64,000 bases of DNA from Rhabdophis nuchalis (GCA_039707465.1 CM077648.1:75451119-75515118), one strand, 5' to 3'; counted from the first letter of the stretch, positions 24,336-64,000 are shown. Numbers and translations: made by a program. The notes: generated from the letters alone by a model not told the origin.

Positions 24336-24660
24336 TATATATATATGCGCTCCCTTAATTGGGGCTTAACACCCTGGTAAGCCCCAATTAAGGGAGGAAG
24401 CATACTGCTTTCCTTTTCTGCCTTTCGGCTCATCACCAGAGACCATCTAGACAGAAAGCCATGAGTTCCGTTGTGTACTTTTTTAATATATGTGTTAGGG
24501 TTTTTTTTTTTTTTTTGAACTGATCAATAAATCAGCCATACTCTTACTGGGATTCTGATGGCTAGCTGATGAGAGCTAAATAGCTCGAAATAGATCTATC
24601 CTAGTCTCCCTGATTTATTTATTGATCAGCTAAAAAAAAAACACAACCTAACACACACAC
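24336..24660. mobile_element. hammerhead-containing repeat, inverted fragments
   Basis: The left part (TTAATTGGGGC, CTTTCGGCTCATCACCAGAG, ATCTAGACAG) matches the 49.7-54.1 kb repeat in the array's orientation. At about 24530 the orientation flips and a plus-strand hammerhead follows, ending at TGATTTATTTATTGATCAGC. The two halves share the inverted motif CTGATCAATAAATCAG, consistent with a snap-back joint. Confidence 0.7.
24560..24606 (+). ncRNA. type I hammerhead ribozyme motif
   Basis: Stem I is GGCUAG with CUAGUC. The core CUGAUGA is followed by stem II GAGCU-AAAU-AGCUC, then GAA, stem III AUA-GAUC-UAU, and the cleavage base C17 at 24600. The third stem I pair is U-A here but C-G in other copies, a compensatory change. 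Confidence 0.8.
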
Positions 24661-28200: not shown

Positions 28201-29362
28201 GCCTCAGGGGTTGGTCCTTTCGCCTCTCCTGTTTAATGCATACATGAAGCCGCTGGGTGAGATCATCCGTGGTTTTGGGGTAGAGTATCATCTCTACGCT
28301 GATGATACTCAGCTGTATATATCTACCCCAAACCACCCCAACGATGCCGTAGCGGTGATGTGCCAGTGCCTGGAAGCCGTGCGGATCTGGATGGGAAGTA
28401 ACGGACTTAGGCTCAACCCGACCAAGACCGAGTGGCTGTGGTTTCCGGCTGCCCGATTCAACCACCTTTCTCCAACGCTGGCCATAGGGGGCGAACATCT
28501 TGCCCCTGTGGATGGGGCGCGCAATTTGGGTGTCCTCCTGGATACCCGGCTGTCTATGGAAGAGCAAGTGACAGCCGTGGCCAGGAGGGCGTTTTACCAG
28601 GTTCGCCTGGTTCGCCAATTGCGCCCCCTATTGGATCGGGACGCCCTTCGCACAGTCACTCATGCCCTCGTGACATCTCGACTGGACTATTGTAACTCTC
28701 TCTACATGGGGCTCCCCTTGAGGTGCACCCGGAGGCTTCAGTTAGTTCAGAATGCAGCCGCGCGAGCAATTATGGGAACCACCAGGTTCACCCACGTTAC
28801 ACCGCTCTTGCGCGAGCTGCACTGGCTACCTGTCGTCTTCCGGGTGCGCTTCAAGGTACTAATCATCATCTTTAAAGCGCTCCATGGCTCGGGACCTAGC
28901 TACCTGCGGGATCGGATCCTGCCTCATACATCCTCACGGCCGATTCGCTCCCACAGAGAGGGACTGCTCCGGGTGCCGTCCACTAGACTCTGTCAGCGGG
29001 CGACGCCCAGGGGAAGGGCTCTCTCTGTGGCGGGCCCGGCCCTCTGGAACGACCTTCCCCCCGATATTAGAACGACCACGGACCTCCGCTCCTTCCGCCT
29101 GAAATTGAAGACTCATCTTTTCCGCCTGGCCGGCCTAGGGTAGTCTCTCTGTCTATGGGTTTTTAAATGTATACTATATTTATTGGGTATTTTTAGTTAA
29201 TGGGATTTTAGCACAGGATTGATTGAGTTTAATTCGTTTTAATTTGTATGTATTTTGTATATTTTTCGTTTTTTAATTTCCCTGTGCACCGCCCCGAGTC
29301 CCTGTGGGGAGAGGGTGCGGTCAATAAATTTCAACTTATTATTATTATTATATTATTATTAT
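25270..29362 (+). mobile_element. apparently full-length L2-clade LINE
   Basis: A GC-rich 5' UTR (from about 25285) leads into one long ORF (25883-29143). A 3' UTR with the stem-forming motif CACCGCCCCGAGTCCC follows, then a TTA/ATT-repeat tail (29335-29362). The same 3' UTR ends all younger L2 copies in this window (17.2, 36.7, 41.8, 44.2 and 56.4 kb). No separate ORF1 with a recognisable domain is visible upstream. I could not identify a target-site duplication, so the exact 5' end is approximate. Confidence 0.85.
25883..29143 (+). CDS. L2-type LINE ORF: AP endonuclease and reverse transcriptase, intact
   Basis: This 1086-residue protein should nick chromosomal DNA and copy L2 RNA by target-primed reverse transcription. 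The APE-type endonuclease lies at about 150-360: FCNARS at 154-159, ETW with E183, GDFNLP with D289, and SDHSLL with D356-H357. The RT domain covers about 620-890: [20 protein letters not shown], motif [10 protein letters not shown] (D716), motif [16 protein letters not shown], and the YADD box at 805-808 with D807-D808. The C-terminus carries the L2 signature LLRELHWLPV and ALWNDLPPDIR and ends RLAGLG. No stop or frameshift is present. The G to L change after GVPQG (usual GVPQGS) is the only oddity noticed. The ATG at 25883 is the first in the long frame; the true start may lie further in because the first ~100 residues look low in conservation. Confidence 0.92.
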   Translation: MYSRASLLLLRESPLSQVWPSELSRARLEEGFINPERRVKRGLRGFLVRKFLSIVGGTREGGGHRQIETKQLYERKGRTSSRREGTEGTDLRGELLVAPLEGMPIQTVVGRGRAEGRPSSRLLARSRCLRTVRCHNPRRLGGQGIQSLGLQLMFCNARSVVNKAPLVHDLVSEGEPDLVGIAETWLGHEGRLPLVEMCPPGYRAFHQPRAQGRGGGVAVIIKEGLEPRETIVPQTTGCESLCVKWGLGRQLGLLVIYLAPRYVAAALPELLEVIATVAVETPRLIVMGDFNLPSLGESSEVAREFMASMTAMDLTQLIQGPTHEGGHTPDLIFVSGQWKSDLGLGDIVITPLSWSDHSLLRLDFPTATPRREEVAPEPPIWFRPRRLMDPDGFQMALGPLPVPLTRAPMEDLVAAWNTATTGALDQVAPLRPLLRRRTAPAPWFTEELRAMKRHKRCLERRWRATRSGSDRTQVRAHLRTYIVALRVAKRHHCATLIASAENRPAALFRVTRSLLQQRVREAPLQGRAEEFVTFLQDKIAQIQNELAPIHGPVGCHEADLVWEEFDSVASEDMDRLRGRLRATTCLLDPCPSWLVLASWEVTRGWLQEVVNASLSEGSLPASLKEAMVRPLLKKPSLDPALLTNYRPVSNLPFLAKVVESVVAQQFPRHLEEVDYLDPPQSGFRPGHSTETALVALVDDLWRARDGGCSSILVLLDLSAAFDTIDHGILLHRLGRLGVGGTVLRWFSSYLSGRSQFVLAGEQRSIPRPLTCGVPQGLVLSPLLFNAYMKPLGEIIRGFGVEYHLYADDTQLYISTPNHPNDAVAVMCQCLEAVRIWMGSNGLRLNPTKTEWLWFPAARFNHLSPTLAIGGEHLAPVDGARNLGVLLDTRLSMEEQVTAVARRAFYQVRLVRQLRPLLDRDALRTVTHALVTSRLDYCNSLYMGLPLRCTRRLQLVQNAAARAIMGTTRFTHVTPLLRELHWLPVVFRVRFKVLIIIFKALHGSGPSYLRDRILPHTSSRPIRSHREGLLRVPSTRLCQRATPRGRALSVAGPALWNDLPPDIRTTTDLRSFRLKLKTHLFRLAGLG

Positions 29363-34035: not shown

Positions 34036-36381
34036 GGATATGGACAGGTTGCGGAGGAACCTTAGAGCCACCACATGTTTATTGGACCCGTGTCCCTCCT
34101 GGCTTGTACTGGCATCCTGGGAGGTGACACGAGGCTGGCTCCAGAACATTGTGAATGCGTCTTTGGGTGAGGGGTTCTTACCTACCACCTTGGAAGAGGC
34201 GGTGGTGATACCTCTCCTCAAAAAGCCTTCCCTGGACCCAGCATTGCTGGTAAATTACCGTCCGGTCTCCAACCTTCACTTTTTTGCGAACGTTGTAGAG
34301 AGTGTGGTGGCTCAACAGTTTCCTCGTCACCTGGAGGAAGTTGATTATCTAGACCCGCGCCAGTCCGGCTTCCGACCCGGTCACAGCACTGAGACGGCAT
34401 TGGTCGCATTGGTTGATGATCTCTGGAGGGCACGGGATAGAGGTTACTCCTCTATCCTAGTCCTATTAGACCTCTCAGCGGCTTTTGATACCATCGACCA
34501 TGGTATCTTATTGCACTGATTGGGGGGGTTGGGGCTGAGAGGTACCGTTCTGCGGTGGTTCTCGTCCTACCTCTCTGGTCGGTCGCAATGGGTGTTGGCA
34601 GGAGGGCAGAGGTTGTCCCCGAGGCCCCTCATATGTGGGGTTCCTCAGGGGTCGGTCCTCTCGCCACTTCTGTTCAACACCTACATGAAGCCGCCGGGTG
34701 AGATCATCCGTGGTTTTGGGGTGGAGTACCATCTGTACGCTGACGACACTCAGCTGTACATATCCACCCCAAACCACCCCAACGATGCCGTCGAGGTGCT
34801 GTCCCGGTGTTTGGAGGCCGTACGGATCTGGATGGGTAGTAACAAACTCAAGCTCAACCCGTCCAAGACCGAGTGGCTGTGGTTTCCGGCACCCCGGTTC
34901 AGCCAGATAAGTCCAACACTGGCCCGGAAAGGTTCCAGAGGGAGCTTGGGCCAATTCCTGTGACCCTGCCCCGCGACTTGACTGAGGACCTAGTGGCCGC
35001 ATGGTTAAGTGCGGCCACGGGGGCCTTGGACCGAGTCGCGCCCTTGCGGCCTCTCTTGCGGCGACGAATCACCCAGGCTCCTTGGTTCACTGAGAAGCTT
35101 CGGGGGATGAAACGCCACAAGAGATGCCTAGAGAGCAGATGGAGATCCTCTCGCTCCGAAGCCGACCGAACACTAGTGAGAACCCATATTAGGGCTTATT
35201 TAGTGGCGATAAGAGTGGCCAAACGTGAGTATTGTGCCACCCTTATTGCATCCGCAGATAACCGCCCTGCCGCCCTGTTTGGGGTGACCCACTCCCTCCT
35301 CCACCAGAGGCCGCGGGAAGCCCCTCTGCAAGGGCGAGCAGAGGAATTTGGGATTTATCTGCAGGAGAAAATCACTCGGATTCGGAATGAATCCTTTCAC
35401 TTTTTGAAAGGATTCATTCCGAACAGCACCGAGACGGCATTGGCCGCGTTGGTTGATGATCTCTGGAGGGCGCGGGATAGAGGTTATTCCTCTATCCTAG
35501 TCCTATTAGACCTCTCGGCGGCTTTTGATACCATCGACCATTGCACCGACTGGGGGGGGGGGTTGGGGCTGGGAGGCACCGTTCTGCGGTGGTTCTCGTC
35601 CTACCTCTCTGGTCGGTCGCAATATGTGTTGACGGGAGGGCAGAGGTCGACCTCGAGGCCTCTCCTATGTGGGGTCCCTCAGGAGTCGGTCCTCTCGCCC
35701 CTCCTTTTCAACACATATATGAAGCCGCTGGGTGAGATCATCTGTGGTTTTGGGGTGGAGTACCATCTGTACGCTGATGACACTCAGTTGTACATATCCA
35801 CCCCAAACCACCCCAACGATGCCACCGAAGTGCTGTCCCAGTGTCTGGAAGCCGTACGGATCTGGATGGGTGGTAACAAACTCAAGCTCAACCCTGCCAA
35901 GACTGAGTGGCTGTGGTTTCCGGCACCCCGGTTCAGCCAGATTATTCCAACTCTGGCCATTGGGGGCGAAACACTGGCCCCCGTGGAGACGGCGCGCAAT
36001 TTGGGTGTCCTCCTGGATTCCCGGCTGTCCATGGAGGACCATGTGGCAGCCGTGGCCAGGGGGGCGTTTCATCAGGTACGCCTGATGCGCCAATTGCGCC
36101 CCTTACTGGACCGGGCTGCCCTTCGCACAGTCACTCAAGCTCTCGTGACGTCCCGACTCGACTATTGTAATGCTCTCTACATGGGGCTCCCCTTGAGGTG
36201 CACTCGAAAGCTACAGTTAGTACAGAATGTGGCCGCGCAGGTGATTTTGGGTGCCCCAAGGCAAGCCCACATAACACCTCTCCTACGTGAGCTGCACTGG
36301 CTGCCTGTGGCCTTTCGAGTGCGCTTCAAGGTGTTGACCATCTTCAAAGCGCTCCATGGCTCGGGGCCTAGGTATATATGA
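34036..36381 (+). pseudogene. L2 ORF remnants: duplicated and deleted RT region
   Basis: Part 1 encodes [19 protein letters not shown] through motif A ([14 protein letters not shown]) and YADD. It carries an in-frame TGA at 34517-34519 where relatives have Arg (CGA to TGA, a CpG-type change). At 34925 it jumps back to the linker (ERFQRELGPIPV) with a change of frame. A 502-codon frame (34873-36381) then runs through the linker, crosses a 19-bp hairpin at 35381-35423 where the endonuclease-RT linker and first RT motifs were lost, and continues from STETALAALVDDLW through a second motif A, YADD and LLRELHWLPVAF until a stop at 36379. It has two YADD boxes but no endonuclease, so it cannot move by itself. 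Confidence 0.8.
35381..35423. repeat. perfect 19-bp snap-back hairpin at a deletion joint
   Basis: The arms 35381-35399 (TTCGGAATGAATCCTTTCA) and 35405-35423 are exact complements with a 5-nt CTTTT spacer. The left arm matches L2 poorly beyond GGAATGA, and the right arm directly precedes the resumption of L2 sequence. Confidence 0.9.
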
Positions 36382-38650: not shown

Positions 38651-39080
38651 CTCTCAGTTTAGCTCATATCCCTGCACGACAACCACACTTTCTTTTTCGA
38701 TCATGGCTCTTCCACCTTTTCTTTAAAGGGGCATCACTTGTTTCCCCCCGTATCTCGCTGCCACCGCTTCCAACTCCTCCTCTTTTCTGGACCTGCTCAT
38801 ATCCCTGCACGACAACCACACTTTTCTTTTTCGATCATGGCTCTTCCACCTTTTCCTTAAAGGGGCATCACTTGTTTTCCCCTGTATCTCGCTGCCACCG
38901 CCTCCAACTCCTCCCCTTTTCTGGACCTGTCAACAGTCACATACAATTCCTTCACCCCATAAGCCTTGGGATCTCTCCTCCTCTGTCTCCTTTGAAGAAA
39001 ACCCTGGTTGGTAAGAAAATCTATCACTGGGCCAGCAGTCATTCTTGCTGCTGGCAGAACAATTCCAAACAACACAAATG
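38651..39080 (-). repeat. 133-bp tandem duplication in the LINE 5' region
   Basis: Two copies (about 38662-38794 and 38795-38928) share GCTCATATCCCTGCACGAC and CTTTAAAGGGGCATCACTTG with few differences. They lie directly upstream, in LINE sense, of the endonuclease start, so they probably belong to the element's 5' region. A short minus frame (38857-39075, GPVIDFLTNQGFLQRRQRR) crosses the second copy but shows no known domain. Confidence 0.6.
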
Positions 39081-44199: not shown

Positions 44200-46560
44200 A
44201 TAGTAATAATTTATAATAATAATAATTTTATTTTTATAAACCGCGTCCTCTCCCGACGGGGACTCGGAGCGGTGTACAGGGAAAAAATTAAAACGCATAA
44301 AATACATATACAATAAATACACTAAGTTAAAAACCAAATTAAACTCAATTCAATTGTCCCTGCACTAAAATTCCCATTAATTAAAACTAATAATCCCAAA
44401 CCCTAAAGGTAGAGACTAACCTAGGCCGGCCAAACGGAAAAAGTGTGTTTTTAATTTCTGACGGAAGAAGCGGAGGTCCGTGGTTGTTCTAATGTCGGGG
44501 GGAAGGTCGTTCCAGAGGGCTGGGCCCGCCACAGAGAAGGCCCTTCCCCTGGGCGTCGCCCGCTGACAAAGTCTAGTGGACGGCACCCGGAGAAGTCCCT
44601 CTCTGTGGGAGCGAATCGGTCGTGAGGATATATGGGGCAGGATCCGATCCTGCAGATAGCTAGGTCCCGAGCCATGGAGCGCTTTGAAGATGATAACTAG
44701 CACCTTGAAGCGCACCCGAAAGACGACAGGCAGCCAGTGCAGCTCGCGCAAGAGCGGTGTTATGTGGGTATACCTTGCGGTCCCCATTATTGCTCGCGCG
44801 GCTGCATTCTGGACCATCTGAAGTCTTCGGGTGCACCTCAAGGGGAGCCCCATGTAGAGAGAGTTACAATAGTCCAGTCGGGATGTCACGAGAGCATGAG
44901 TGACTGTGCAAAGGGCATCCCGATCCAATAGGGGGCGCAACTGGCGTACCAGGCGAACCTGGTAAAACGCCCTCCTGGCCACGGCTGTCACTTGATCTTC
45001 CATGGACAGCCGGGTATCCAGGAGGACACCCAAGTTGCGCGCCCCATCCACAGGGGCAAGATGTTCGCCCCCTATGGCCAGCGATGGAATCAGCTGGTTG
45101 AATCGGGCAGCCGGAAACCACAGCCACTCGGTCTTGGTCGGGTTGAGCCTGAGTCTGTTACTTCCCATCCAGATCCGCACGGCTTCCAGGCACTGGCACA
45201 TCACCGCTACGGCATCGTTGGGGTGGTTTGGGGTAGATATATACAACTGCGTATCATCAGCGTAGAGGTGATACTCTACCCCAAAACCACGGATGATCTC
45301 GCCCAGCGGCTTCATATATGCATTGAACAGGAGAGGCGAGAGGACCGACCCCTGAGGCACCCCACATGTGAGGGGACTTGAGGTCGACCTCTGCTCTCCT
45401 GCCAACACAAATTGCGATTGACCAGAGAGGTAGGAGGAGAACCACCGTAAAACGGTGCCTCCCACCCCCAACCCCCCCAGCCGATGCAATAGGATACCAT
45501 GGTTGATGGTATCAAAAGCCGCTGAGAGGTCTAATAGGACCAGGATGGAGGAACAACCCCCATTTCTGGCCCTCCAGAGATCATCCACCAACGCGACCAA
45601 TGCCGTCTCGGTGCTATGCCCGGGCCGAAAGCCGGACTGGCGCGGGTCTAGATAATCAACTTCCTCCAGGTGACGGGGAAACTGTTGTGCCACCACACTC
45701 TCTACAACCTTCGCCAGGAAGGGAAGGTTGGAGACGGGACGATAGTTGGATAATAAAGCTGGGTCCAAAGAGGGCTTCTTCAGGAGGGGCCTGACCATGG
45801 CCTCTTTAAGGGAGGCAGGCAAGAATCCCTCACTTAAAGAAGCGTTGACAAACTCTTGGAGCCAGCCTCGTGTCACCTCCCAGGATGCCAGTACAAGCCA
45901 GGAAGGACACGGGTCCAATAAACATATGGTGGCTCGCAGTCGCCCACGTAACCTGTCCATATCCTCGGAAGTAACAGAGTCAAACTCCTCCCAACCAGGA
46001 TCCGCCTCGTGGCCTCCCACTGGGCCATCAATGGAGACTAACTCGTTATGGATCTGAGCGATTTTCTCCTGCAGATAAATCACAAATTCCTCTGCTCTAC
46101 CCTGTAATGGGGCTTCCCACACCCTCTGTTGAAGGAGGGAGCGGGTCACCCTAAACAGGGCGGCAGGGCGGTTATCTGCGGATGCTATGAGAGTGGCACA
46201 ATGATGACGTTTGGCCACTCTCAGCGCCACAATGTAAGTCCGTAAATGGGCTCTTACCTGTGTTCGGTCGGATTCAGATCGAGTAGACCTCCATCTTCTC
46301 TCTAGGCATCTCTTGTGGCGCTTCATCACCCTTAGCTCCTCGGTAAACCAAGGAGCCAGAGTGGCTCGCTGCCGCAAGAGAGGCCGCAAGGGCGCGACCC
46401 GATCCAAGGCTCCCGTGGTCGCAGTATTCCATGCGGCCACGAGGTCTTCCATCGGGGCGCGGGTCAGGGGTACAGGAAGTGGCCCAAGCACCGCCTGGAA
46501 CCCGTTGGGGTCCATCAGGCGCCTGGGGCGGAACCAGATAGGCAACTCAGGTTCCGCCCC
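44200..46560 (-). mobile_element. 5'-truncated L2 LINE with long open frame
   Basis: The tail of ATT units is at about 44200-44235. The L2 3' UTR (GTCCTCTCCCGACGGGGACT stem) spans 44236-44415. The coding part ends abruptly at about 46560 where non-L2 sequence starts. Confidence 0.9.
44416..46545 (-). CDS. L2 ORF, C-terminal 709 codons without stops (truncated)
   Basis: Minus-strand protein starting IWFRPRRLMDPNGFQ. It has no endonuclease but carries the whole linker, the RT ([14 protein letters not shown], motif [37 protein letters not shown]) and the C-terminus (LLRELHWLPVV, ALWNDLPPDIR, RLAGLG). It differs from the intact copy at 25.9-29.1 kb by scattered substitutions only. It keeps the usual GVPQGS, which the full-length copy lacks. 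With no promoter or endonuclease it should be inactive, but the long open frame shows recent arrival. The listed Met start is just the first ATG after the truncation point. Confidence 0.88.
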   Translation of the reverse strand: MPIWFRPRRLMDPNGFQAVLGPLPVPLTRAPMEDLVAAWNTATTGALDRVAPLRPLLRQRATLAPWFTEELRVMKRHKRCLERRWRSTRSESDRTQVRAHLRTYIVALRVAKRHHCATLIASADNRPAALFRVTRSLLQQRVWEAPLQGRAEEFVIYLQEKIAQIHNELVSIDGPVGGHEADPGWEEFDSVTSEDMDRLRGRLRATICLLDPCPSWLVLASWEVTRGWLQEFVNASLSEGFLPASLKEAMVRPLLKKPSLDPALLSNYRPVSNLPFLAKVVESVVAQQFPRHLEEVDYLDPRQSGFRPGHSTETALVALVDDLWRARNGGCSSILVLLDLSAAFDTINHGILLHRLGGLGVGGTVLRWFSSYLSGQSQFVLAGEQRSTSSPLTCGVPQGSVLSPLLFNAYMKPLGEIIRGFGVEYHLYADDTQLYISTPNHPNDAVAVMCQCLEAVRIWMGSNRLRLNPTKTEWLWFPAARFNQLIPSLAIGGEHLAPVDGARNLGVLLDTRLSMEDQVTAVARRAFYQVRLVRQLRPLLDRDALCTVTHALVTSRLDYCNSLYMGLPLRCTRRLQMVQNAAARAIMGTARYTHITPLLRELHWLPVVFRVRFKVLVIIFKALHGSGPSYLQDRILPHISSRPIRSHREGLLRVPSTRLCQRATPRGRAFSVAGPALWNDLPPDIRTTTDLRFFRQKLKTHFFRLAGLG

Positions 46561-48810: not shown

Positions 48811-49700
48811 TATACCTACAGAAGATAGTAGGTTGTCCACAATCATTGTACTAAATGTTTGAAACAAGTTGCAAGTATTTCTCATCAAAGTCAGATGAGG
48901 CAGGCTCTTTCCCAACGCTGAGGGCAGCAGTTCTGCTCTTTTCTGAAATTTGCATCAGAAGGATAACGCAAGACTTACCTTTTCAGAACGTAATCTTATT
49001 CTTCTGCATGCATATTTGCTCTTCTTTTTAATATATCTTTTTATTTTTATGCTTTACATTAAATGAATATTTATGCTGTCTATCTCTGCTATAAGGCAAC
49101 TTGCTTTCCCAAGCTTTACATAGAAAAGATGTCTATATTTGCCTGGATCTCTTTGGATTTTTTTTTAATGGGGACCCTGATATTAATTATGTTTCTTTTA
49201 ATATCTATTCCATTTTCCCCTCCATGTCCAATTTTCCCTTGGAGCAGAGGATAAGATATTCCTTAAACTAAATTGCTATCTATGTAATTTTGTGAAAATG
49301 ACTGTTCCTTTTAACATTGCCTAGTTTATTGAACTCTGAATATTTTTATTCTTTTCTCTGTATCAACTCATAAAATATCTTTCCTCTCATGGACATTTTA
49401 TTTTAGCTTAAGCAGATCCTTCTCATTTTCTCTGTTCACTAAGCTATGGTCACATATCTATATTTGCTGGACTCACTGTGTCTGTACAGGAAGAAAAATG
49501 TTTTAATATAAAGCCAAACAAGTTTCATTGGAATTGGTATAAAGATTTTTTCCTCTCATAGTATAGTAGTTTGAGAAAATAAGAGCCTGTGAAAAAGATT
49601 TAGTCTAAAACACCCTAGGCTTCTTATTAAACAATCATTTATGCATGCCACTTTCTCCCCTTTGTTTATTTTATGATAGTGCTGGTCACATTTATTTATT
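48811..49700. other. anonymous AT-rich DNA
   Basis: No gene recognised; the frame 49063-49254 is hydrophobic but featureless. Confidence 0.4.
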
Positions 49701-49701
49701 C

Positions 49702-49703
<2 letters not shown>

Positions 49704-49754
<51 letters not shown>
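49704..49754. repeat. (GT)n microsatellite at the hammerhead-repeat edge
   Basis: About 23 GT units directly precede a copy of the hammerhead repeat. Confidence 0.95.
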
Positions 49755-49809
49755 ACAACATCCTGGTAAGCCCCAAGTTTTATGAGCTGATCAATAAATA
49801 AATCAGAGA

Positions 49810-49856
49810 GACCAGGATAGATCTATTTCAAGCTTATTAACTCTCATCAGCTGGCC
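49810..49856 (-). ncRNA. type I hammerhead ribozyme motif
   Basis: Minus strand: stem I GGCCAG/CUGGUC, core CUGAUGA, stem II GAGUU-AAUA-AGCUU (paired using G-U wobbles), GAA, stem III AUA-GAUC-UAU, cleavage after C. Confidence 0.8.
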
Positions 49857-50211
49857 ATACCCTTTACTGGGACTCGAACCCGGGCTGTATTGCATATCAG
49901 GCAGGAGCCTAGCAATTCAGCCAAGCTGGCTCTCCCTTATTGCATCAGCTGAGACAGGGGTATTTAGTATAGGTAATTGTTTTCAGAACAATTACCTATA
50001 CTATACGAACTAAGCTTAAAATAGATCTATCCTGGACACTCTGATTTATTTATTGATCAGCTCATAAAACTAACACACATAGCTAAAAAATTTACACAAC
50101 GGAACTCTTGGCTTTCTGTCTAGATGGTCTCTGGTGATAAGCCGAAAGGCAGAAAAGGAAACAGTATGGCTCCTCCCTTAATGGGGCCCTAACAGGATGT
50201 TATGAAAACAA

Positions 50212-50272
<61 letters not shown>

Positions 50273-50308
50273 TATGTTAGATTTTTAAGGGCTGATTAAT
50301 AAATAAGA

Positions 50309-50355
50309 GACCAGGATGGATCCATTTCGGGCTTGTTAGCCCTCTTCAGCTGGCC
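50309..50355 (-). ncRNA. type I hammerhead ribozyme motif, CUGAAGA subtype
   Basis: Minus strand: stem I GGCCAG/CUGGUC, core CUGAAGA (position 7 of the hammerhead core tolerates any base), stem II GGGCU-AACA-AGCCC, GAA, stem III AUG-GAUC-CAU, cleavage after C. Stems II and III differ from the CUGAUGA type in both strands but stay paired. Confidence 0.8.
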
Positions 50356-50659
50356 ATACTCCTTCTACTGGGATTTGAACCGGCACTCTCCAGCATATCA
50401 AGGCATAAAAAGGCGAGCCTTTTTATGCCTTGAACTATCCGGCATCCCTGATTACATCAACCATTACAGGACTCTTTAATGAGAGAATATTTTCACAACT
50501 CCTGTTATGGGCCCCTTTAAGGGAGGAGACATACTGTCATCCTTCTCTGCCTTTCGACTCAACCTAGAGATCATCTGGGCAGAGAGCCAAATGAGATTAC
50601 TGTTGTGTGAATTTTTTTAGATATGTGTTAGATTTTTAAGGGCTGATTAATAAATAAGA

Positions 50660-50706
50660 GACCAGGATGGATCCATTTCGGGCTTGTTAGCCCTCTTCAG
50701 CTGGCC
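50660..50706 (-). ncRNA. type I hammerhead ribozyme motif, CUGAAGA subtype
   Basis: Identical in all stem and core positions to 50309-50355; the surrounding unit is also repeated. Confidence 0.8.
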
Positions 50707-50758
50707 ATACTCCTTCTACTGGGATTTGAACCGGCACTCTCCATATATATATATAAAC

Positions 50759-50801
<43 letters not shown>

Positions 50802-50970
50802 ATTGTTTTCACAACTTCCTGTTAGGGCCCCATTAAGGGAGGAGACATACTGTTTCCCTTTCTGCCTTTCGGCTCATCACCAGAGACCATCTAGACAGAG
50901 AACCATGAATTATGTTGTGTAAATTTTTTTTAGATATGTGTGTTAGTTTTGATCAGCTCATAAAACTAAC

Positions 50971-51015
<45 letters not shown>

Positions 51016-51047
51016 GTTTTTGAGCTGATCAATAAATAAGTCAGGGA

Positions 51048-51094
51048 GACTAGAATAGATCTATTTCGAGCTTATTAGCTCTCATCAGCTACCC
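51048..51094 (-). ncRNA. type I hammerhead ribozyme motif (variant)
   Basis: Minus strand: stem I GGGUAG/CUAGUC (one mismatch), core CUGAUGA, stem II GAGCU-AAUA-AGCUC, stem III AUA-GAUC-UAU, cleavage base U instead of C (still an allowed NUH site). Confidence 0.7.
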
Positions 51095-51272
51095 ATACCC
51101 TTACTGGGATTCGAACCCTGGAAACAGTATGTCTCCTCCCTTAATTGAGGCCTTAACAGGGTGTTGTGGAAACATATATATATGCTAGTTTTTATGAGCT
51201 GATCAATAAATTTAAATTTGAGAGACCAAGATAACCGCCTTATTAGCTCTCATCAGTTGGCCACACCCCACT

Positions 51273-51345
51273 GGGATTCGAACCGGGGCTGTAATGTATC
51301 TAAGGCAGAAGCCTAGCACTCCAGCCTAATCGGTTCTACCCTGTT
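51273..51345 (-). promoter_or_regulatory. tRNA-like polymerase III promoter head of the repeat unit
   Basis: Minus strand: an A-box-like TTAGGCTGGAGTGCTAGG and a B box GGTTCGAATCC matching the GGTTCGANTCC consensus, about 30 nt apart as in tRNA genes. The head recurs at about 51619-51691, 51965-52037, 52311-52383 and 52658-52730 (the last with GGTTCAAATCC). It begins about 10 nt upstream of each hammerhead. The full cloverleaf is imperfect, so this is a tRNA-derived promoter and not a tRNA gene. Confidence 0.7.
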
Positions 51346-51561
51346 TCATCAGCTAATCCAGGAGTATTTAGTATAGATAATTGTTACCACAACTTCCTGT
51401 AAGGGCCCCAATTAAGGGAGGAGACATGCTGTTTCCCTCTCTGCCTGTCGGCTCATCACCAGAGACCATCTAGACAGAGAACCATTTTTTAGTTACGTTG
51501 TGTAATATTTTTTAGATATGTGCTAGTTTTTATGAGCTGATCAATAAATTTAAATTTGAGA

Positions 51562-51608
51562 GACCAAGATAGATCTATTTCGAGCTTATTAGCTCTCATC
51601 AGTTGGCC
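51562..51608 (-). ncRNA. type I hammerhead ribozyme motif (array unit 2)
   Basis: Minus strand: stem I GGCCAA/UUGGUC, core CUGAUGA, stem II GAGCU-AAUA-AGCUC, GAA, stem III AUA-GAUC-UAU, cleavage base C opposite 51568. The pair next to the core is A-U here and G-C in 49810-49856. Confidence 0.85.
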
Positions 51609-51907
51609 ACACCCCACTGGGATTCGAACCGGGGCTGTAATGTATCTAAGGCAGAAGCCTAGCACTCCAGCCTAATCGGTTCTACCCTGTTTCATCAGCT
51701 AATCCAGGAGTATTTAGTATAGATAATTGTTACCACAACTTCCTGTAAGGGCTCCAATTAAGGGAGGAGACATGCTGTTTCCCTCTCTGCCTGTCGGCTC
51801 ATCACCAGAGACCATCTAGACAGAGAACCATATTTTAGTTACGTTGTGTAATATTTTTTAGATATGTGCTAGTTTTTATGAGCTGATCAATAAATTTAAA
51901 TTTGAGA

Positions 51908-51954
51908 GACCAAGATAGATCTATTTCGAGCTTATTAGCTCTCATCAGTTGGCC
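51908..51954 (-). ncRNA. type I hammerhead ribozyme motif (array unit 3)
   Basis: Same bases as the motif at 51562-51608. Confidence 0.85.
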
Positions 51955-52253
51955 ACACCCCACTGGGATTCGAACCGGGGCTGTAATGTATCTAAGGCAG
52001 AAGCCTAGCACTCCAGCCTAATCGGTTCTACCCTGTTTCATCAGCTAATCCAGGAGTATTTAGTATAGATAATTGTTACCACAACTTCCTGTAAGGGCCC
52101 CAATTAAGGGAGGAGACATGCTGTTTCCCTCTCTGCCTGTCGGCTCATCACCAGAGACCATCTAGACAGAGAACCATTTTTTAGTTACGTTGTGTAATAT
52201 TTTTTAGATATGTGCTAGTTTTTATGAGCTGATCAATAAATTTAAATTTGAGA

Positions 52254-52300
52254 GACCAAGATAGATCTATTTCGAGCTTATTAGCTCTCATCAGTTGGCC
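52254..52300 (-). ncRNA. type I hammerhead ribozyme motif (array unit 4)
   Basis: Same bases as the motif at 51562-51608. Confidence 0.85.
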
Positions 52301-52600
52301 ACACCCCACTGGGATTCGAACCGGGGCTGTAATGTATCTAAGGCAGAAGCCTAGCACTCCAGCCTAATCGGTTCTACCCTGTTTCATCAGCTAATCCAGG
52401 AGTATTTAGTATAGATAATTGTTACCACAACTTTCTGTAAGGGCCCCAATTAAGGGAGGAGACATGCTGTTTCCCTCTCTGCCTGTCGGCTCATCACCAG
52501 AGACCATCTAGACAGAGAACCATTTTTTAGTTACGTTGTGTAATATTTTTTTAGATATGTGCTAGTTTTTATGAGCTGATCAATAAATTAAAATTTGAGA

Positions 52601-52647
52601 GACCAAGATAGATCTATTTCGAGCTTATTAGCTCTCATCAGTTGGCC
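52601..52647 (-). ncRNA. type I hammerhead ribozyme motif (array unit 5)
   Basis: Same bases as the motif at 51562-51608; the adjoining B box in this unit reads GGTTCAAATCC. Confidence 0.85.
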
Positions 52648-52799
52648 ACACCCCACTGGGATTTGAACCGGGGCTGTAATGTATCTAAGGCAGAAGCCTA
52701 GCACTCCAGCCTAATCGGTTCTACCCTGTTTCATCAGCTAATCCAGGAGTATATAGTATAGATAATTGTTACCACAACTTCCTGTAAGGGCCCCAATTA

Positions 52800-52898
52800 A
52801 GGGAGGAGACATGCTGTTTCCCTAAAAAATGGTTCTCTGTCTAGATGGTCTCTGGTGATGAGCCGACAGGCAGAGAGGGAAACAGCATGTCTCCTCCT
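52800..52898. repeat. fold-back end of the tandem array
   Basis: GGGAGGAGACATGCTGTTTC near 52801-52822 is followed, after a joint, by an inverted piece of the same unit. That piece runs from TCTAGATGGTCTCTGGTGAT through GAGGGAAACAGCATG and ends at 52897. Confidence 0.85.
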
Positions 52899-53185
52899 TA
52901 TATTTATATTTATATTTATATTTATATTTATATTTATATTTATATTTATATTTATATTTATATTTATATTATTTATATTTATATTATTTATATTTATATT
53001 TATATTTATATTTATATTTATATTTATATTTATATTTATATTATTTATATTTATATTTATATTATTTATATTTATATTTATATTTATATTTATATTTATA
53101 TTTATATTTATATTTATATTTATATTATTTATATTTATATTTATATTTATATTTATATTTATATTTATATTTATATTTATATTGA
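52896..53185. repeat. (TTTATA)n hexanucleotide satellite run
   Basis: About 290 bp of TTTATA units with occasional 3-bp losses. The alternating Tyr-Ile or Phe-Ile frames over it are artefacts. Confidence 0.95.
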
Positions 53186-53218
53186 TTTATTGATTTATTG
53201 ATTAGCTCATAAAAACTA

Positions 53219-53249
<31 letters not shown>

Positions 53250-53280
53250 AGATTTTTAAGGGCTGATTTAATAATTAAGA

Positions 53281-53327
53281 GACCAGGTTAGATCTATTTC
53301 TGGCTTTTTAGCCTTCTTCAGCTGGCC
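53281..53327 (-). ncRNA. decayed hammerhead motif, CUGAAGA subtype
   Basis: Minus strand: stem I GGCCAG/CUGGUC and core CUGAAGA are kept. The last stem III base is changed (AUAGAUCUAA) and the closing stem II pair is A-A, so activity is unlikely. Confidence 0.6.
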
Positions 53328-53620
53328 ATACTTCTTCTACTGGGATTTGAACCGGCACTTTCCAGCATATTAGGCAAGCCTTGCTATGCCTTGAGCTAAC
53401 CGGCTTTCCCTGATTACATCAGCCTTTTACAGGACTCTAATTGATGAGAGAATATTTTTACAGCTCCTGTTTTTGAGGCCCGTTTTAAGGGAGGAGACAA
53501 ACTGTCATCCTTCTCTGCCCTTCGACTCAACCTATAGATCATCCAGACAGAGACCCATTAAGATTGCTTTTGTTTTTTAGGTATGTGTTAGATTTTTAAG
53601 GGCTGATTTAATAATTAAGA

Positions 53621-53667
53621 GACGAGGATAGATCTATTTCTGGCTTTTTAGCCTTCTTCAGCTGGCC
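53621..53667 (-). ncRNA. hammerhead motif, CUGAAGA subtype, weakened stems
   Basis: Minus strand: core CUGAAGA and stem III AUA-GAUC-UAU are intact. Stem I has one mismatch (GGCCAG/CUCGUC) and stem II an A-A closing mismatch. Confidence 0.6.
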
Positions 53668-54129
53668 ATACTTCTTCCACTGGGATTTGAACCGGCACTT
53701 TCCAGCATATTAGGCAAACCTTGCTATGCCTTGAGCTAACCGGCTTTCCCTGATTACATCAGCCTTTTACAGGACTCTTATTGATGAGAGAATATTTTTA
53801 CAGCTCCTGTTTTTGAGGCCCGTTTTAAGGGAGGAGACAAACTGTCATCCTTCTCTGCCCTTCGACTCAACCTAGAGATCATCCAGACAGAGACCCATTA
53901 AGATTGCTGCTGTTTTTTAGGTATGTGTTAGATTTTTAAGGGCTGATTTAATAATTAAGAGACCAGGATAGATTTATTTCTGGCTTAAAAATCTAACACA
54001 TACCTAAAAAACAGCAGCAATCTTAATGGGCATAGCAAGGCTTGCCCATTAAGGCCCCTCAAGGCATAGCAAGGCTTGCGTAATATGCTGGAAAGTGCCG
54101 GTTAAAAATCTAACACATACCTAAAAAAT

Positions 54130-54268
54130 ATATGTTTTCTGAGGTTTTCGCGGGTGGAAGCTCCTGGAAGCACCAGCCTGAAGATGATGAATGAGACTTC
54201 ATTGAAACGTCGTGAAGATACTTCCAATTCTACGCGGGAGAAACCCCGAACAACCAAAGACCTATATA
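54130..54268 (+). repeat. Penelope-type terminal (pLTR-like) sequence with hammerhead-like core
   Basis: It includes CACCAGC, the core CUGAAGA (54178-54184), a stem-loop GAUGAA-UGAGAC-UUCAUU, and GAAACGUC (54204-54211). It then runs TACGCGGGAGAAACCCCGAA and ACCAAAGACC, the ending style of Penelope-like element termini. The same start, truncated, closes the minus-strand PLE at 54680-54720. Stem I pairing is weak and one U is unpaired between core and stem II, so cleavage activity is uncertain. Confidence 0.5.
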
Positions 54269-54275
54269 TATATAT

Positions 54276-54501
54276 ATGCTGGCATAGCTGGCTTCGGGGA
54301 TTTTCCCGTGTATAAGGCATAGAAATGTTATTGCAACATTTCGACAAGATCTCACTTGTCATCATCAGGCAGGCTTCTGTCTGTGACTGTCACAGACAGA
54401 AGCCTGCCTGATGATGACAAGTGAGATCTTGTCGAAACGTTGCAATAACATTTCTATGCCTTATACATGGGAAAATCCCCGAAGCCAGCTATGCCAGCAT
54501 A
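54276..54501. repeat. 226-bp near-perfect palindrome of PLE terminal sequence
   Basis: The arms (54277-54386 and 54390-54500) are reverse complements with about three differences, separated by CTG. Each arm carries GATGATGACAAG, a loop, CTTGTCGAAA (cores at 54333-54368 minus and 54408-54443 plus), the arrangement of PLE hammerhead-like motifs. The outer ends are TGCTGGCATAGCTGGC and its complement. Confidence 0.88.
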
Positions 54502-54522
54502 CCTACACCTGTGAAAATCTAC

Positions 54523-55697
<1,175 letters not shown>

Positions 55698-55731
55698 TCA
55701 CATACATCGGACAAACCAAAACTTCTTCCCT
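55698..55731. repeat. inverted-fragment joint between PLE and CR1
   Basis: 55698-55719 (TCACATACATCGGACAAACC) is the reverse complement of PLE sequence at about 55462-55483. 55720-55731 (ACTTCTTCCCT) is the complement of about 55386-55397. CR1 starts right after. Confidence 0.7.
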
Positions 55732-56217
55732 TTGGGTCGCCATGATGTAGAAAAGATGTGGAGACTCTAGAAAGAGTGCAGAGAAGAGCAACAAAGATGA
55801 TTAGGAGACTGGAGACTAAAACATATGAAGAATGGTTGCAGGAACTAGGTATGTCTAACTTAATGAAAAGAAGGACTGGGGAGACCTGATAGTAGTGTTC
55901 CAATATCCCAGGGGTTGCCACAAAGAAGAGGGAGTCAAACTATTCTCCAAGACACCTGAGGGCAGAACAAGAAGCAATGGGTGGAAACTAATCAAGGAGA
56001 GAAGCAACTTAGAACTGAGGAGAAATTTCCCGACAGTTAGAACAATTAGTCAGTGGAACAGCTTGCCTCCAGAAGTTGTGAATGCCCCAATACTGGAAGT
56101 CTTTAAGAAGATATTGGATAGGGATTTGTTTGAAATAGTATAAAGTTTCTGCCAAGGCAGGGGGTTGGACTAGAAGACCTCCAAGGTCCCTTCCAACTCT
56201 GCTATTGCTGTTGTATG
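55732..56217 (+). pseudogene. CR1 LINE 3' fragment, copy E
   Basis: It starts in [18 protein letters not shown], continues as MIRRLETKTYEEWLQELG and MSNLMKRRTG, and after a frameshift [35 protein letters not shown] and NSLPPEVVNAPILEVFKK. It ends in the 3' UTR GGGGGTTGGACTAGAAGACC and a short tail. It belongs to the same subfamily as copies A and B. Confidence 0.85.
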
Positions 56218-61839: not shown

Positions 61840-62159
61840 GAGACAATGTTTTACAACTCCTGTTGAGGCCCCTTTAAGGAAGGAGACAAACTGTCATCCT
61901 TCTCTGCCTATTCGGCTCATCCCAGAGACCATCTTTGGCAGAGAGCCATGAGATTACTGTTGAATTTTTTAGATATGTGTTATATATATGTGTTAGTTTT
62001 ATGAGCTGATTCTTGGCTTGCTGTCTAGATGATCTCTGGTGATGAGTCGAAAGGCAGGAAAGGAAACAGTATGTCTGCTCCCTTAATTGGGGCCTAATAA
62101 CAGGTTGTTGAGAAACAATTACATATATATATATAAATTTATTGATCAGCTCATAAAAC

Positions 62160-62190
<31 letters not shown>

Positions 62191-62199
62191 CGTATGTAT

Positions 62200-62231
<32 letters not shown>

Positions 62232-62277
62232 TTGTTTTCGTAGATATATATAGATATAGATATATGTATGTATGTAT

Positions 62278-62341
<64 letters not shown>

Positions 62342-62690
62342 GTATATATATATATGAAGAATAATTATCACAGCTCCTGTTCAGAGGTCCCTTTAAGGGG
62401 AGGAGACTCAACGTCATCCCTCTCTGCCCTTCGACTCAACTCAGAGATCATCCAGACAGAGAACCAATTAGATTACTGCTGTGTGACATTTTTTAGATAT
62501 GTGTTAGATTTTTAAGGGCTGAAAATAAAGAGACCAGGATGAATCCATTTCAGGCTTATTAGCCTTCTTCAGCTGGCCATACTCCTTCTATTGGGATTTG
62601 AACCGGTGCTTTCCAGCATATGAGGCAGGCTTCTCTATGCCTTGAGCTATCCGGTATCCCTGATACGTTAAGTCTCCTCCCCTTAAAGGG
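61776..62690. mobile_element. hammerhead/tRNA repeat copies with microsatellites
   Basis: Fragments of the 49.7-54.1 kb repeat alternate with (TA)n/(CA)n (61778-61838), CATA/GTAT/TA runs (62160-62360) and inverted pieces near 62000-62110. A complete minus-oriented CUGAAGA-type unit occupies about 62372-62690. Its tRNA-like head is at about 62590-62665 (A box GGATAGCTCAAGGCA, B box GGTTCAAATCC). Confidence 0.78.
62532..62578 (-). ncRNA. type I hammerhead ribozyme motif, CUGAAGA subtype
   Basis: Minus strand: stem I GGCCAG/CUGGUC, core CUGAAGA, stem II AGGCU-AAUA-AGCCU, GAA, stem III AUG-GAUU-CAU, cleavage after C. Stem II again differs from other copies on both strands. Confidence 0.82.
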
Positions 62691-64000
62691 ATCCTTCATA
62701 GAAACAATAAAAAAACAAAATCTACAGCCCAGCGATCTACTCGTGAGTTTTGATGTCATATCCCTCTTCACCCAAGTGCCTATAAAAGAAGCCTTGACAG
62801 CCATCCAGAACAAATACAACCCCCCCAAGCACATCCTGGATCTGACCAACCACTGTCTAACCAACACATACTTCATTCACAATGACCAAAGATACAAACA
62901 GATAGAAGGAGCACCCATGGGATCACCCCTCTCACCGGTCATCGCAAACTTATACATGGAACACTTTGAAACCAACGCCCTAGAAAAATCTGAACACAAA
63001 CACAAACTCTGGCTCAGATATGTAGATGACACTTTTGTAATTTGGCCACATGGGAAAGAAAAACCGGACAACTTCCTCACACACCTCAACTCCCTACACC
63101 CCAAAATACAATTCACCATGGAAATAGAAGCCAACAACCAACTCCCTTTTCTAGACGTCCTAATCTACAAAAAACCTAATGGCTCCCTAGGACACACCAT
63201 CTACCAGAAAAAAACACACACCAACCGCTACCTAAATGCACAATCCCATCACCACCCTGCACAGATAAACTCTGTAGCCAAAACCCTCATACACAGAACC
63301 AAACGCCTAGCTGACAAAGACCATCTGAAAACCAAAATACACTTCCTCACAAATACATTAATATCCAACGGATTCCGAAGAAAAACAATCACCAAACTAA
63401 TCCAACAAGAGACACCCCCCAGGAACCAAGACAAAGAACAGGAAAATGGCATTGCCCTCATCCCATACATTAAAGGTACCACAGACAAAATCAGCAAAAT
63501 TCTCCACAAGCACAACATCAAGACAGCCTTCAACACCGACCAAAAAATAACCAATATCCTAAGGAACGCAAAAGACAAGATCCAGCTAGAAAACCAAGGA
63601 GTCTACAAAATTCCATGTAAAAGCTGCCCTGCCACTTACATAGGACAAACCAACAGAAGGATTAGTGCACGTATTGCTGAACATAAAAATGCTTTAAAAA
63701 ATCATCTTAATACCTCATCTCTCTATCAACATTTCAAAACTACAGGACATGACATTGACTTTCAAGGAACTAAAATGATCTCCAAGGCGGAACAGCTCAA
63801 CAGGAGAATAATCAGAGAAGCCATTGAAATAGAGAAACAATCTAGCAGCATGAATAAACGTGATGATACCTCCCGCCTACCAGATATCTGGAAGCCAGCA
63901 TTGACCAGCAGACGAGCCCCACCCTCCAGCCAAGCCGTTGAAATTCAAAACAAGGAGAAACATACAAATGAGACCAATCAACATCAATCTACCAGTCATG
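62690..64000 (+). CDS. Penelope-like element RT with GIY-YIG endonuclease, open to window end
   Basis: The plus-strand frame through CTA at 62722 has no stop from about 62689 to the window end (about 435 codons). It begins inside the RT at motif A (LVSFDVISLFTQVP, Asp codon at 62752), then has motif B GAPMGSPLSPVIANLYMEHF (62908) and the catalytic YVDD box (63019-63030) followed by LPFLDVLIYKK. A linker (PYIKGTTDKISKILHKHNIK) leads to the GIY-YIG nuclease: GVY at 63598, CxxC (PCKSCP), YIG at 63637, then RISARIAEHKN. The C-terminal LNRRIIREAIEIEKQ region follows. This order is diagnostic of endonuclease-bearing Penelope-like retroelements. The N-terminal RT part is absent (5' truncation next to a hammerhead repeat) and the stop lies beyond the window. 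It is likely a recent copy because no disabling change is visible. Confidence 0.92.

Follow-up and report, generated by a model that had tools for sequence, protein, structure and literature searches.

Head-to-head hammerhead repeats of retrozyme type in Rhabdophis nuchalis and their proposed mobilisation by Penelope-like elements

How does a short repeat carrying a hammerhead ribozyme come to lie both in tandem arrays and in inverted pairs, and which enzyme would have put it there? This question is raised by 64,000 nucleotides (nt) of DNA from Rhabdophis nuchalis (GCA_039707465.1 CM077648.1:75451119-75515118), the whole of which is called here the window. The repeats found in it are a real, structurally supported hammerhead family of the retrozyme type. 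We propose, at a probability of about two in three, that they are retrozymes of the non-long terminal repeat (non-LTR) kind, that is, non-coding units of ~345 bp with a type I hammerhead, which have been mobilised by Penelope-like elements.

In order to establish the identity of the ribozymes, we scanned both strands of the 64 kb with a strict description of the motif: the core CUGA(U/A)GA, fully paired helices (G-U allowed), a helix I of at least 4 bp, the A15.1-U16.1 pair and H17. The scan gave nine matches, all of them among 12 sites listed by an initial annotation of this DNA, and no match in 100 dinucleotide-preserving shuffles of the whole window. All 12 hammerhead-shaped sites were confirmed at the coordinates and on the strands given by that annotation, each being 47 nt long (Table 1); the type I identity is supported, and chance is excluded by the shuffled windows. 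The stem variants listed for the family are also correct at those sites that carry them. The core followed by UC or UU at the cleavage site had been claimed for every copy and holds for most, but at 53281 U16.1 is lost and the sequence reads AC. Likewise, the stems had been said to stay paired, which is true of 107 of 112 pair cells (95.5%, over the 8 distinct sequences among the 12), while 3 of the 12 sites have broken pairs. The full set of type I features (core, A15.1-U16.1, H17, three helices and an open helix I) is present at nine sites. Site 51048 keeps the hammerhead core with one distal mismatch, a G-G in helix I, and has UU at the cleavage site. Sites 53281 and 53621 fall outside type I: in both, the helix II pair nearest the core is an A-A mismatch, combined in 53281 with the absence of U16.1 (AC before the cut) and in 53621 with a C-C mismatch in helix I. 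The hammerhead criteria described in PMC3088659 would exclude the same two sites.

A search with Infernal and the Rfam models, proposed as a check of the annotation, returned no match at the gathering threshold in the window. Hammerhead_HH9 was the hammerhead model listed below that threshold, with 27.4, 27.4, 23.8 and 23.7 bits at four sites, and the copies of two tandem arrays (A and B, described below) were absent from its listing in a search over 49600-54800 at E up to 10. Its best score, 28.8 bits at 51894-51965 (E ~1e-5 when 141 bases were searched), stays far below the cut-off of 52. This shortfall concerns the Rfam family models and not the hammerhead fold. A covariance model built from the 12 copies (R1) recovers those 12, as it must, and at E <0.01 it finds two further degenerate copies on the minus strand, 51220-51268 (39.7 bits) and 53957-54005 (20.4 bits); eight more rows stand at E 0.23-4.6.

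Paired substitutions in the stems had been taken as the mark of selection on an RNA fold. We assessed them with identical rows counted once, which leaves 8 distinct sequences of the 12, falling into two subfamilies and a few outliers. We also extended the alignment to 57 nt, so as to take in an outer, 3-bp part of helix I that lies past a small internal loop; here both partners have changed in 7 of 17 pairs (the outer extension included; 13 of 136 cells). The percentage of cells that pair is 94.1% of the 136, compared with 32-53% when the partners are slid by 1 to 3 columns, and neither this percentage nor the covariation score was reached by any of 500 shuffles. In the 47-nt alignment, 5 of 14 pairs change on both sides, a value reached by 7 of 500 shuffles. 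Further pair types did not exceed the control, since 439 of 500 shuffles were as high in the 57-nt alignment and 492 of 500 in the 47-nt one, and all these shuffle controls ignore the relatedness of the copies. Thus, the compensatory changes are borne out by the 7 of 17 pairs, but the independent double changes are several and not dozens, because only 8 distinct sequences in two subfamilies and outliers contribute to them. Selection on the fold, in turn, is not uniform, because 3 of the 12 sites are damaged and both array-B sites have the same mismatch next to the core.

When eight of the 12 ribozymes were folded as single molecules, helices I and II were present in the minimum-energy fold of six and were lost in 51048 and 53621. 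The loop of helix III is an exact 10-nt palindrome, AUAGAUCUAU or AUGGAUCCAU, in three of four copies tested, and for two of four copies an unconstrained two-strand fold predicts a double hammerhead with a 10-bp helix III. For amphibian hammerheads in which helix III is very short, PMC7229834 reports poor cleavage by single molecules and far better cleavage by dimers.

The unit in which the ribozyme is embedded is best seen in tandem arrays A and B. The three full units of array A between intact cut sites measure 347, 346 and 346 bp, and because they differ at only five columns this array appears to be recent or homogenised. Units within the arrays are ~97-99% alike, and units A and B are ~69% identical to each other. 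Metazoan non-LTR retrozymes are described as units of 150-450 bp with a GC content below 45-50% (PMC7229834); here the 346- and 340-bp tandem units, in 4.8 and 2.2 copies, lie within these limits, with ~42% GC in both (145 of 346 bases in A and 143 of 340 in B). No open reading frame (ORF) of at least 150 aa was found in the 49.7-54.1 kb cluster, and an ORF at 61874-62371 (minus), with no Pfam match, overlaps the retrozyme copies of 61.8-62.4 kb. Array B expanded despite a mismatch beside the core in both of its listed ribozymes, and since it multiplied with such mismatches, this argues that ribozyme perfection is unnecessary for tandem growth. The middle of the subfamily A unit, e.g., 50120-50175 (plus), reads TGGTGATAAGCCGAAAGGCAGAAA, elsewhere TGGTGATGAGCCGA..GGCAGA, and resembles a decayed second hammerhead; this candidate (the UGAUGAGCCGA stretch), judged by eye, was dropped, as it is not kept in subfamily B.

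On the ribozyme strand of both units there is a B-box-like motif, GGTTCGAATCC in A or GGTTCAAATCC in B, which ends 11 nt (A) or 15 nt (B) before the hammerhead. The pattern GGTTCRANTCC has 12 matches in the window, all 12 on the minus strand and all 12 within these repeats. Transcription of the units by RNA polymerase III is only a suggestion from the sequence, because neither an A box nor a tRNA was found. Runs of at least four T are absent from the sense strand of units A and B (the A-runs number 3 and 7, respectively). As polymerase III evidence the absence of TTTT was discarded as weak, with 25% (A) and 41% (B) of mononucleotide shuffles also lacking it.

The arrangement of the copies is described here with unit positions numbered from the ribozyme cut. 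The copies form pairs, with a minus copy to the left of a plus copy, the heads together and the 3' tails pointing outward; there are nine such head-to-head joints, and in six of them both arms are well aligned. Pair II lies between (TG)n (49707-49753) and (TACA)n (50213-50274), a short (TA)n stands beside the head of pair III at 50743, and several short pieces make up the plus arm of pair B. The plus arm of pair A passes a (TTATAT)n tract and then resumes as a plus tail ending at 53218; this tract, of ~50 copies, occupies 52898-53183, between unit position 151 and the tail. In 7 of the 9 pairs the two arms start at different unit positions (e.g., 284/132, 131/77 and 322/29, with I and III poorly defined), and in the other two, II and IV, the starts are about equal.

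For 17 ends we took the last unit position from a machine alignment. It falls at 39-46 in eight and at 178-190 in six, so that 14 of 17 lie at two A/C-rich sites, which were chosen after inspection of the data; the remaining three (right ends of I, III and B) lie elsewhere or cannot be aligned. These positions mix A and B numbering and correspond in A numbering to ~39-46 and 185-195, and the plus arm of VI contributes two boundaries to the 17 ends, from which the left end of pair I, where a small fold-back lies, is left out. The end sites typically read ...AAAACTAAC and ...AACAATTA, and just past the first of them the unit reads CACATAT (A) or ACACATAC (B). We called sequence microsatellite-like when its period-2/4 identity over 20 nt was 0.8 or more. 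Such sequence adjoins 12 of 17 outer ends, compared with 1.4% of all window positions; the other five flanks score 0.56-0.78 and are mostly shorter (AT)n. None of the nine head-to-head joints reaches 0.8, the nearest being that of pair III (0.72, beside the short (TA)n). The left and right microsatellites of a pair often differ. Most ends lie inside microsatellites, which hide any target-site duplication; where present, such duplications exceed 4 bp in retrozymes, and those of Penelope are short, 8-10 bp (PMC3846280).

Elements of the Penelope type with minimal hammerheads were reportedly described by Cervera and de la Pena in 2014, and pieces of such elements lie directly beside the retrozymes. 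To the right of pair B, (TA)n tracts separate the Penelope-like pieces, and an (AT)n of ~74 repeats (54525-54673) lies beyond fragment 2. Fragment 3 matches the hammerhead stretch of fragment 1 with 97.6% identity over 54683-54723, and it overlaps a frame (55346-55921) whose GIY-YIG match is weak, at 21.3 bits for a cut-off of 22.6. Thus, a string of inverted copies and simple repeats extends from the retrozymes into the Penelope pieces. A head-to-head arm of fragment 1 was suspected by eye, found no support in the alignment and is not claimed. A further Penelope frame, at 62.7 kb, follows pair VII. Among the best 120 of 1271 matches, its protein is 81% identical over 90% of its length to a Podarcis muralis entry, which has RVT_1 and a weak GIY-YIG match, 81% to Vipera over 57% and 77% to Ahaetulla over 68%; other squamates, e.g., Anolis sagrei, stand at 44-49%, and insect and other entries reach 60%.

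Table 1. Positions in the window of hammerhead sites, tandem arrays, head-to-head pairs and Penelope-like pieces.
Feature	Position	Strand	Basis
Hammerhead type I, fully paired, isolated cluster I	24560..24606	+	strict scan; R1 71.5 bits for 24554-24610
Hammerhead type I, fully paired, G-U in helix II	49810..49856	-	strict scan
Hammerhead type I, CUGAAGA core variant, fully paired	50309..50355	-	strict scan
Hammerhead type I, same sequence as 50309	50660..50706	-	strict scan
Hammerhead, one helix I mismatch, UU at cleavage site	51048..51094	-	site inspection
Degenerate hammerhead with deletion, 3'-most unit of array A	51220..51268	-	R1 39.7 bits
Hammerhead, array A	51562..51608	-	strict scan
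Hammerhead, array A	51908..51954	-	strict scan
Hammerhead, array A	52254..52300	-	strict scan
Hammerhead, array A	52601..52647	-	strict scan
Damaged hammerhead, array B (helix II core-proximal A-A; U16.1 lost)	53281..53327	-	pairing check
Damaged hammerhead, array B (helix II core-proximal A-A; helix I C-C)	53621..53667	-	pairing check
Truncated hammerhead at head of array B	53957..54005	-	R1 20.4 bits, E 0.0058
Hammerhead type I, fully paired, cluster VII	62532..62578	-	strict scan
B-box-like GGTTCGAATCC, one example	51966..51976	-	match to GGTTCRANTCC
Tandem array A, 346-bp unit, ~4.8 copies	51175..52823	-	tandem-repeat analysis
Tandem array B, 340-bp unit, 2.2 copies	53247..53986	-	tandem-repeat analysis
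Pair I, isolated copy, extra small fold-back at left tail	24348..24654	.	unit alignment
Pair II: minus arm 49754-49985, plus arm 49986-50214, internal deletions in both	49754..50214	.	unit alignment
Pair III (weak): minus arm with hammerheads 50309 and 50660; plus arm ~15 nt	50277..50758	.	unit alignment
Pair IV: minus arm 50801-50957, short plus arm 50958-50970, palindromic joint	50801..50970	.	unit alignment
Pair V: minus arm to 51118 (position 284), plus arm from 51119 (position 132)	51014..51173	.	unit alignment
Pair A: array A minus (from position 131), joint 52822/52823, plus arm (from position 77)	51184..53218	.	unit alignment
Pair B: array B minus (from position 322), joint near 53985, plus arm (from position 29)	53247..54128	.	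unit alignment
Pair VI: minus arm followed by plus arm, each outer end at a microsatellite	61841..62158	.	unit alignment
Pair VII: minus arm with hammerhead 62532; plus arm aligned over 16 nt, end approximate	62358..62690	.	unit alignment
Penelope-like fragment 1: minimal hammerhead 54178-54211, ~50 nt AC-rich tail (by eye), (TA)n	54165..54262	+	alignment
Penelope-like fragment 2: head-to-head palindrome 111/113 nt, 1-nt spacer, plus-arm hammerhead 54408-54441	54275..54501	.	repeat analysis
Penelope-like fragment 3: 3' part, ends at (AT)n tract	54675..55715	-	alignment
Penelope-like reverse transcriptase frame, runs off window end	62710..63999	+	protein search (query 62620-63999)

Comparison with known systems places the family as follows. 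The axolotl Rtz_331 and Rtz_353 and the newt satellite repeats are, as here, tandem 330-350-bp units of low GC with a type I hammerhead, and amphibian retrozymes also have in common with ours a very short helix III (with a palindromic tetraloop in HHR_Amex1) and the presence of Penelope in the same genome (PMC7229834). This likeness is one of description, and our repeats differ in their squamate host and in the B-box-like motif upstream of the ribozyme; moreover, the head-to-head layout, the two 3' sites and the microsatellite flanks are not described for amphibian retrozymes in the accessible text of PMC7229834. Metazoan hammerhead repeats have, according to the accessible text of PMC4918200, neither primer binding site nor polypurine tract motifs, except for the tRNA in schistosome repeats. 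Sm-alpha of Schistosoma is likewise a short multicopy repeat with a type I hammerhead, but it includes a tRNA-Gln-derived part (PMC2770079, PMC4918200), whereas here we find a B-box-like stretch only, without an A box or a full tRNA. With the hammerhead Penelope-like elements our repeats have in common an AC-rich stretch after the hammerhead, a 3' end tens of nt past the cut, head-to-head inverted copies and simple AT-rich targets (PMC11167929, PMC3846280); in contrast to them, helix III of the retrozyme units has 3 bp and a loop, the units are probably non-coding, and no sequence common to the two was detected. The amniote intronic hammerheads HH9 and HH10 are also of type I, and HH9 has weak similarity here, but they are conserved intronic motifs (PMC6155905), whereas ours is a multicopy repeat. 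Scans for relatives of the repeat in viral contigs gave no match.

We therefore set out how Penelope-driven spread would work. Transcription of a unit or array would yield RNA of the hammerhead strand, with the B-box-like motif as a possible promoter for RNA polymerase III, and the multimeric transcripts would cut themselves at each hammerhead, best as ribozyme dimers formed through the palindromic loop of helix III. The host would re-ligate some monomers to circles, or multimers would remain uncut. A Penelope-like reverse transcriptase/GIY-YIG endonuclease would cut simple-sequence DNA, and copying would start internally, at the A/C-rich site ~39-46 or 178-190 nt past the ribozyme cut. Extension on both target strands would leave a head-to-head pair of partial copies, and one arm might sometimes run through several units and thereby produce a tandem array. 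Since the tailed copies mostly run through the ribozyme cut site, we infer that the template is an uncut multimer or a circle and not a cut linear monomer. The Anolis Penelope protein indeed cuts and extends both DNA strands and prefers AT-rich targets; it starts reverse transcription in an AC-rich stem-loop, 111-118 into the ORF, and as the hammerhead cut is at +26 from the start codon, this start lies ~85-92 nt downstream of the cut (PMC11167929). In rotifers, Penelope inverted repeats are "most frequently" head-to-head and simple AT-rich targets are favoured (PMC3846280). The most specific form of the proposal, namely a squamate retrozyme family with at least one recent or homogenised array and a B-box promoter, inserted by Penelope-like elements via reverse transcription that starts at fixed internal sites and is primed on both cut strands, is tentative, and we put its chances somewhat below even. 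If true, the head-to-head pairs would be a direct integration footprint linking retrozymes to their helper.

A number of points weigh against mobilisation by Penelope-like elements. All layout counts come from this one window, the plus arm is only 15-29 nt long in pairs III, IV and VII (3 of 9), and the left end of pair II, one of the eight at 39-46, lies 24 nt past the aligned stretch. For the periodicity count, the outer ends had been chosen and trimmed by eye beforehand, so that its P value is not that of a blind test and should not be read literally, and this set of 17 ends is similar but not identical to that of the machine alignment. Copies on alternating strands force an alternation of head-to-head and tail-to-tail joints; the informative feature is the presence of microsatellites at the tails, not the joint order itself. 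Even these microsatellites may be outgrowths of the CACATAT/ACACATAC stretch within the element instead of former targets. As for transcription, three A-box patterns had no match in either unit, ARAGORN found 0 tRNAs and no tRNA family matched up to E 10 over 49600-54800, and a full tRNA in the repeat was rejected on these grounds. As for folding, the 3-bp helix III was kept in none of the eight minimum-energy ribozyme folds, whose z-scores range from -2.13 to +0.39, and the predicted circles (minimum-energy fold only) have 54% (A) and 58% (B) of their bases paired, against the "above 70%" given for retrozyme-like self-pairing in PMC4918200. The Penelope copies in the window are all partial, and when the four Penelope pieces were compared with the window, no match was found within the retrozyme units at E 1e-3; judged by sequence, the retrozymes seem to resemble Penelope integration in their working and are not members of Penelope. 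No evidence of cross-mobilisation was seen between rotifer Penelope families (PMC3846280). Finally, the hammerhead of the Anolis Penelope is dispensable for insertion in vitro (PMC11167929), and array B multiplied with damaged ribozymes; because of these two facts, the ribozyme has only a possible part in mobility.

The pairs themselves could have arisen by fold-back self-priming of one cDNA instead of priming on two strands, a route proposed for Penelope inverted repeats (PMC3846280). In pairs II and IV and in the Penelope palindrome the arms start at about the same position, and these three fit fold-back equally well or better. However, the unequal arm starts of 7 of the 9 retrozyme pairs (I and III poorly defined) are unlike a simple fold-back, and because of them two-strand priming is the simpler account of the retrozyme pairs. 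We consider fold-back unlikely as the general origin of the pairs.

A different enzyme may also be invoked. The repeats could be a short interspersed element (SINE) of the retrozyme type, moved by a long interspersed element (LINE), with microsatellites produced by slippage of the 3' tail, as in many SINEs. Frames for reverse transcriptases are present at 25883-29143 (with an endonuclease domain), 44416-46545 and 34873-36381, the B-box-like motif is SINE-like, and (AC)n and (AT)n could readily have started from the stretch past the first end site; Nematostella hammerhead repeats with 15-bp LINE-like duplications are also described (PMC4918200). The two 3' end sites, the tails-outward pairs and the adjoining Penelope fragment of like arrangement nevertheless fit Penelope better, and we regard movement by a LINE as rather improbable.

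Still less probable is that the repeats are satellite DNA spread locally by unequal crossing-over and inversion, the ribozyme being a relic without a role in the spread. The ~97-99% likeness of the array units, the amplification of array B with damaged ribozymes and the broken pairs in 3 of the 12 ribozymes agree with this. It would not account for separate copies lying ~25 kb and 8 kb off (24.35-24.65 kb and 61.84-62.69 kb) with their own breakpoints, for the same 3' end sites being largely kept in these distant copies (pair I differs), or for the compensatory changes in the ribozyme helices. A domesticated intronic hammerhead serving a host gene, such as HH9, the Rfam hammerhead model listed here (23.7-28.8 bits), has next to no probability: these scores are far under the 52-bit gathering score, the copies are many, with tandem arrays and mobile-element surroundings, and copy number and the weak HH9 score rule it out. 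Chance resemblance or artefact, to which the failure to reach the Rfam gathering threshold might point, is negligible in view of the 100 shuffled windows without a match and the covariation controls.

The window contains further elements. A pogo/Tigger-like transposase frame, open over 423 aa (2068-3339), is 93% identical to two proteins, and among the best 120 of 885 matches its named relatives, in turtles, amphibians, fish, arthropods and Podarcis, stand at 51-57%. The LINE-type frame at 25883-29143 (1086 aa, with endonuclease and reverse transcriptase domains) is GC-rich, and among the matches listed (E 1e-50) are proteins of Crotalus (55% over 60% of the query), Vipera (50% over 53%), Varanus (44% over 43%) and Pituophis (60% over 16%). 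A purine-rich minisatellite (GGGGAGAGAAACGGAGCCCAGAAAGAGACGCA) with nested periods of 32, 100, 164 and 332 lies at 751-1576, and a tandem duplication of 134 bp with 95% matches at 38662-38929. Sequences at 56.1-56.4 kb resemble what we take to be repeats common in squamates. Judged by protein similarity, the closest named relatives of the Penelope frame are squamates, as are those of the LINE-type frame at lower identity, and the transposase gives no information on the host; on this evidence a squamate origin is highly probable.

In literature titles and abstract openings we found no report of a squamate or reptile retrozyme, and an earlier mention of lizard hammerheads is possible; the family is of a known kind, and the host group is probably new for it. 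What is new is the occurrence of head-to-head inverted pairs whose outer 3' ends lie at two sites of the unit, beside microsatellites. Penelope has been named a strong candidate helper of retrozymes because the two coexist, both have type I hammerheads and both occur in tandem (PMC7229834). For the question of which enzyme spreads animal retrozymes, the layout described here offers a testable footprint: two start sites, tails outward and simple-sequence targets. A squamate host would extend retrozymes to amniotes, for which the accessible text of PMC7229834 and PMC6155905 gives isolated, domesticated hammerheads only, and it would provide a living source for those isolated, domesticated ribozymes.

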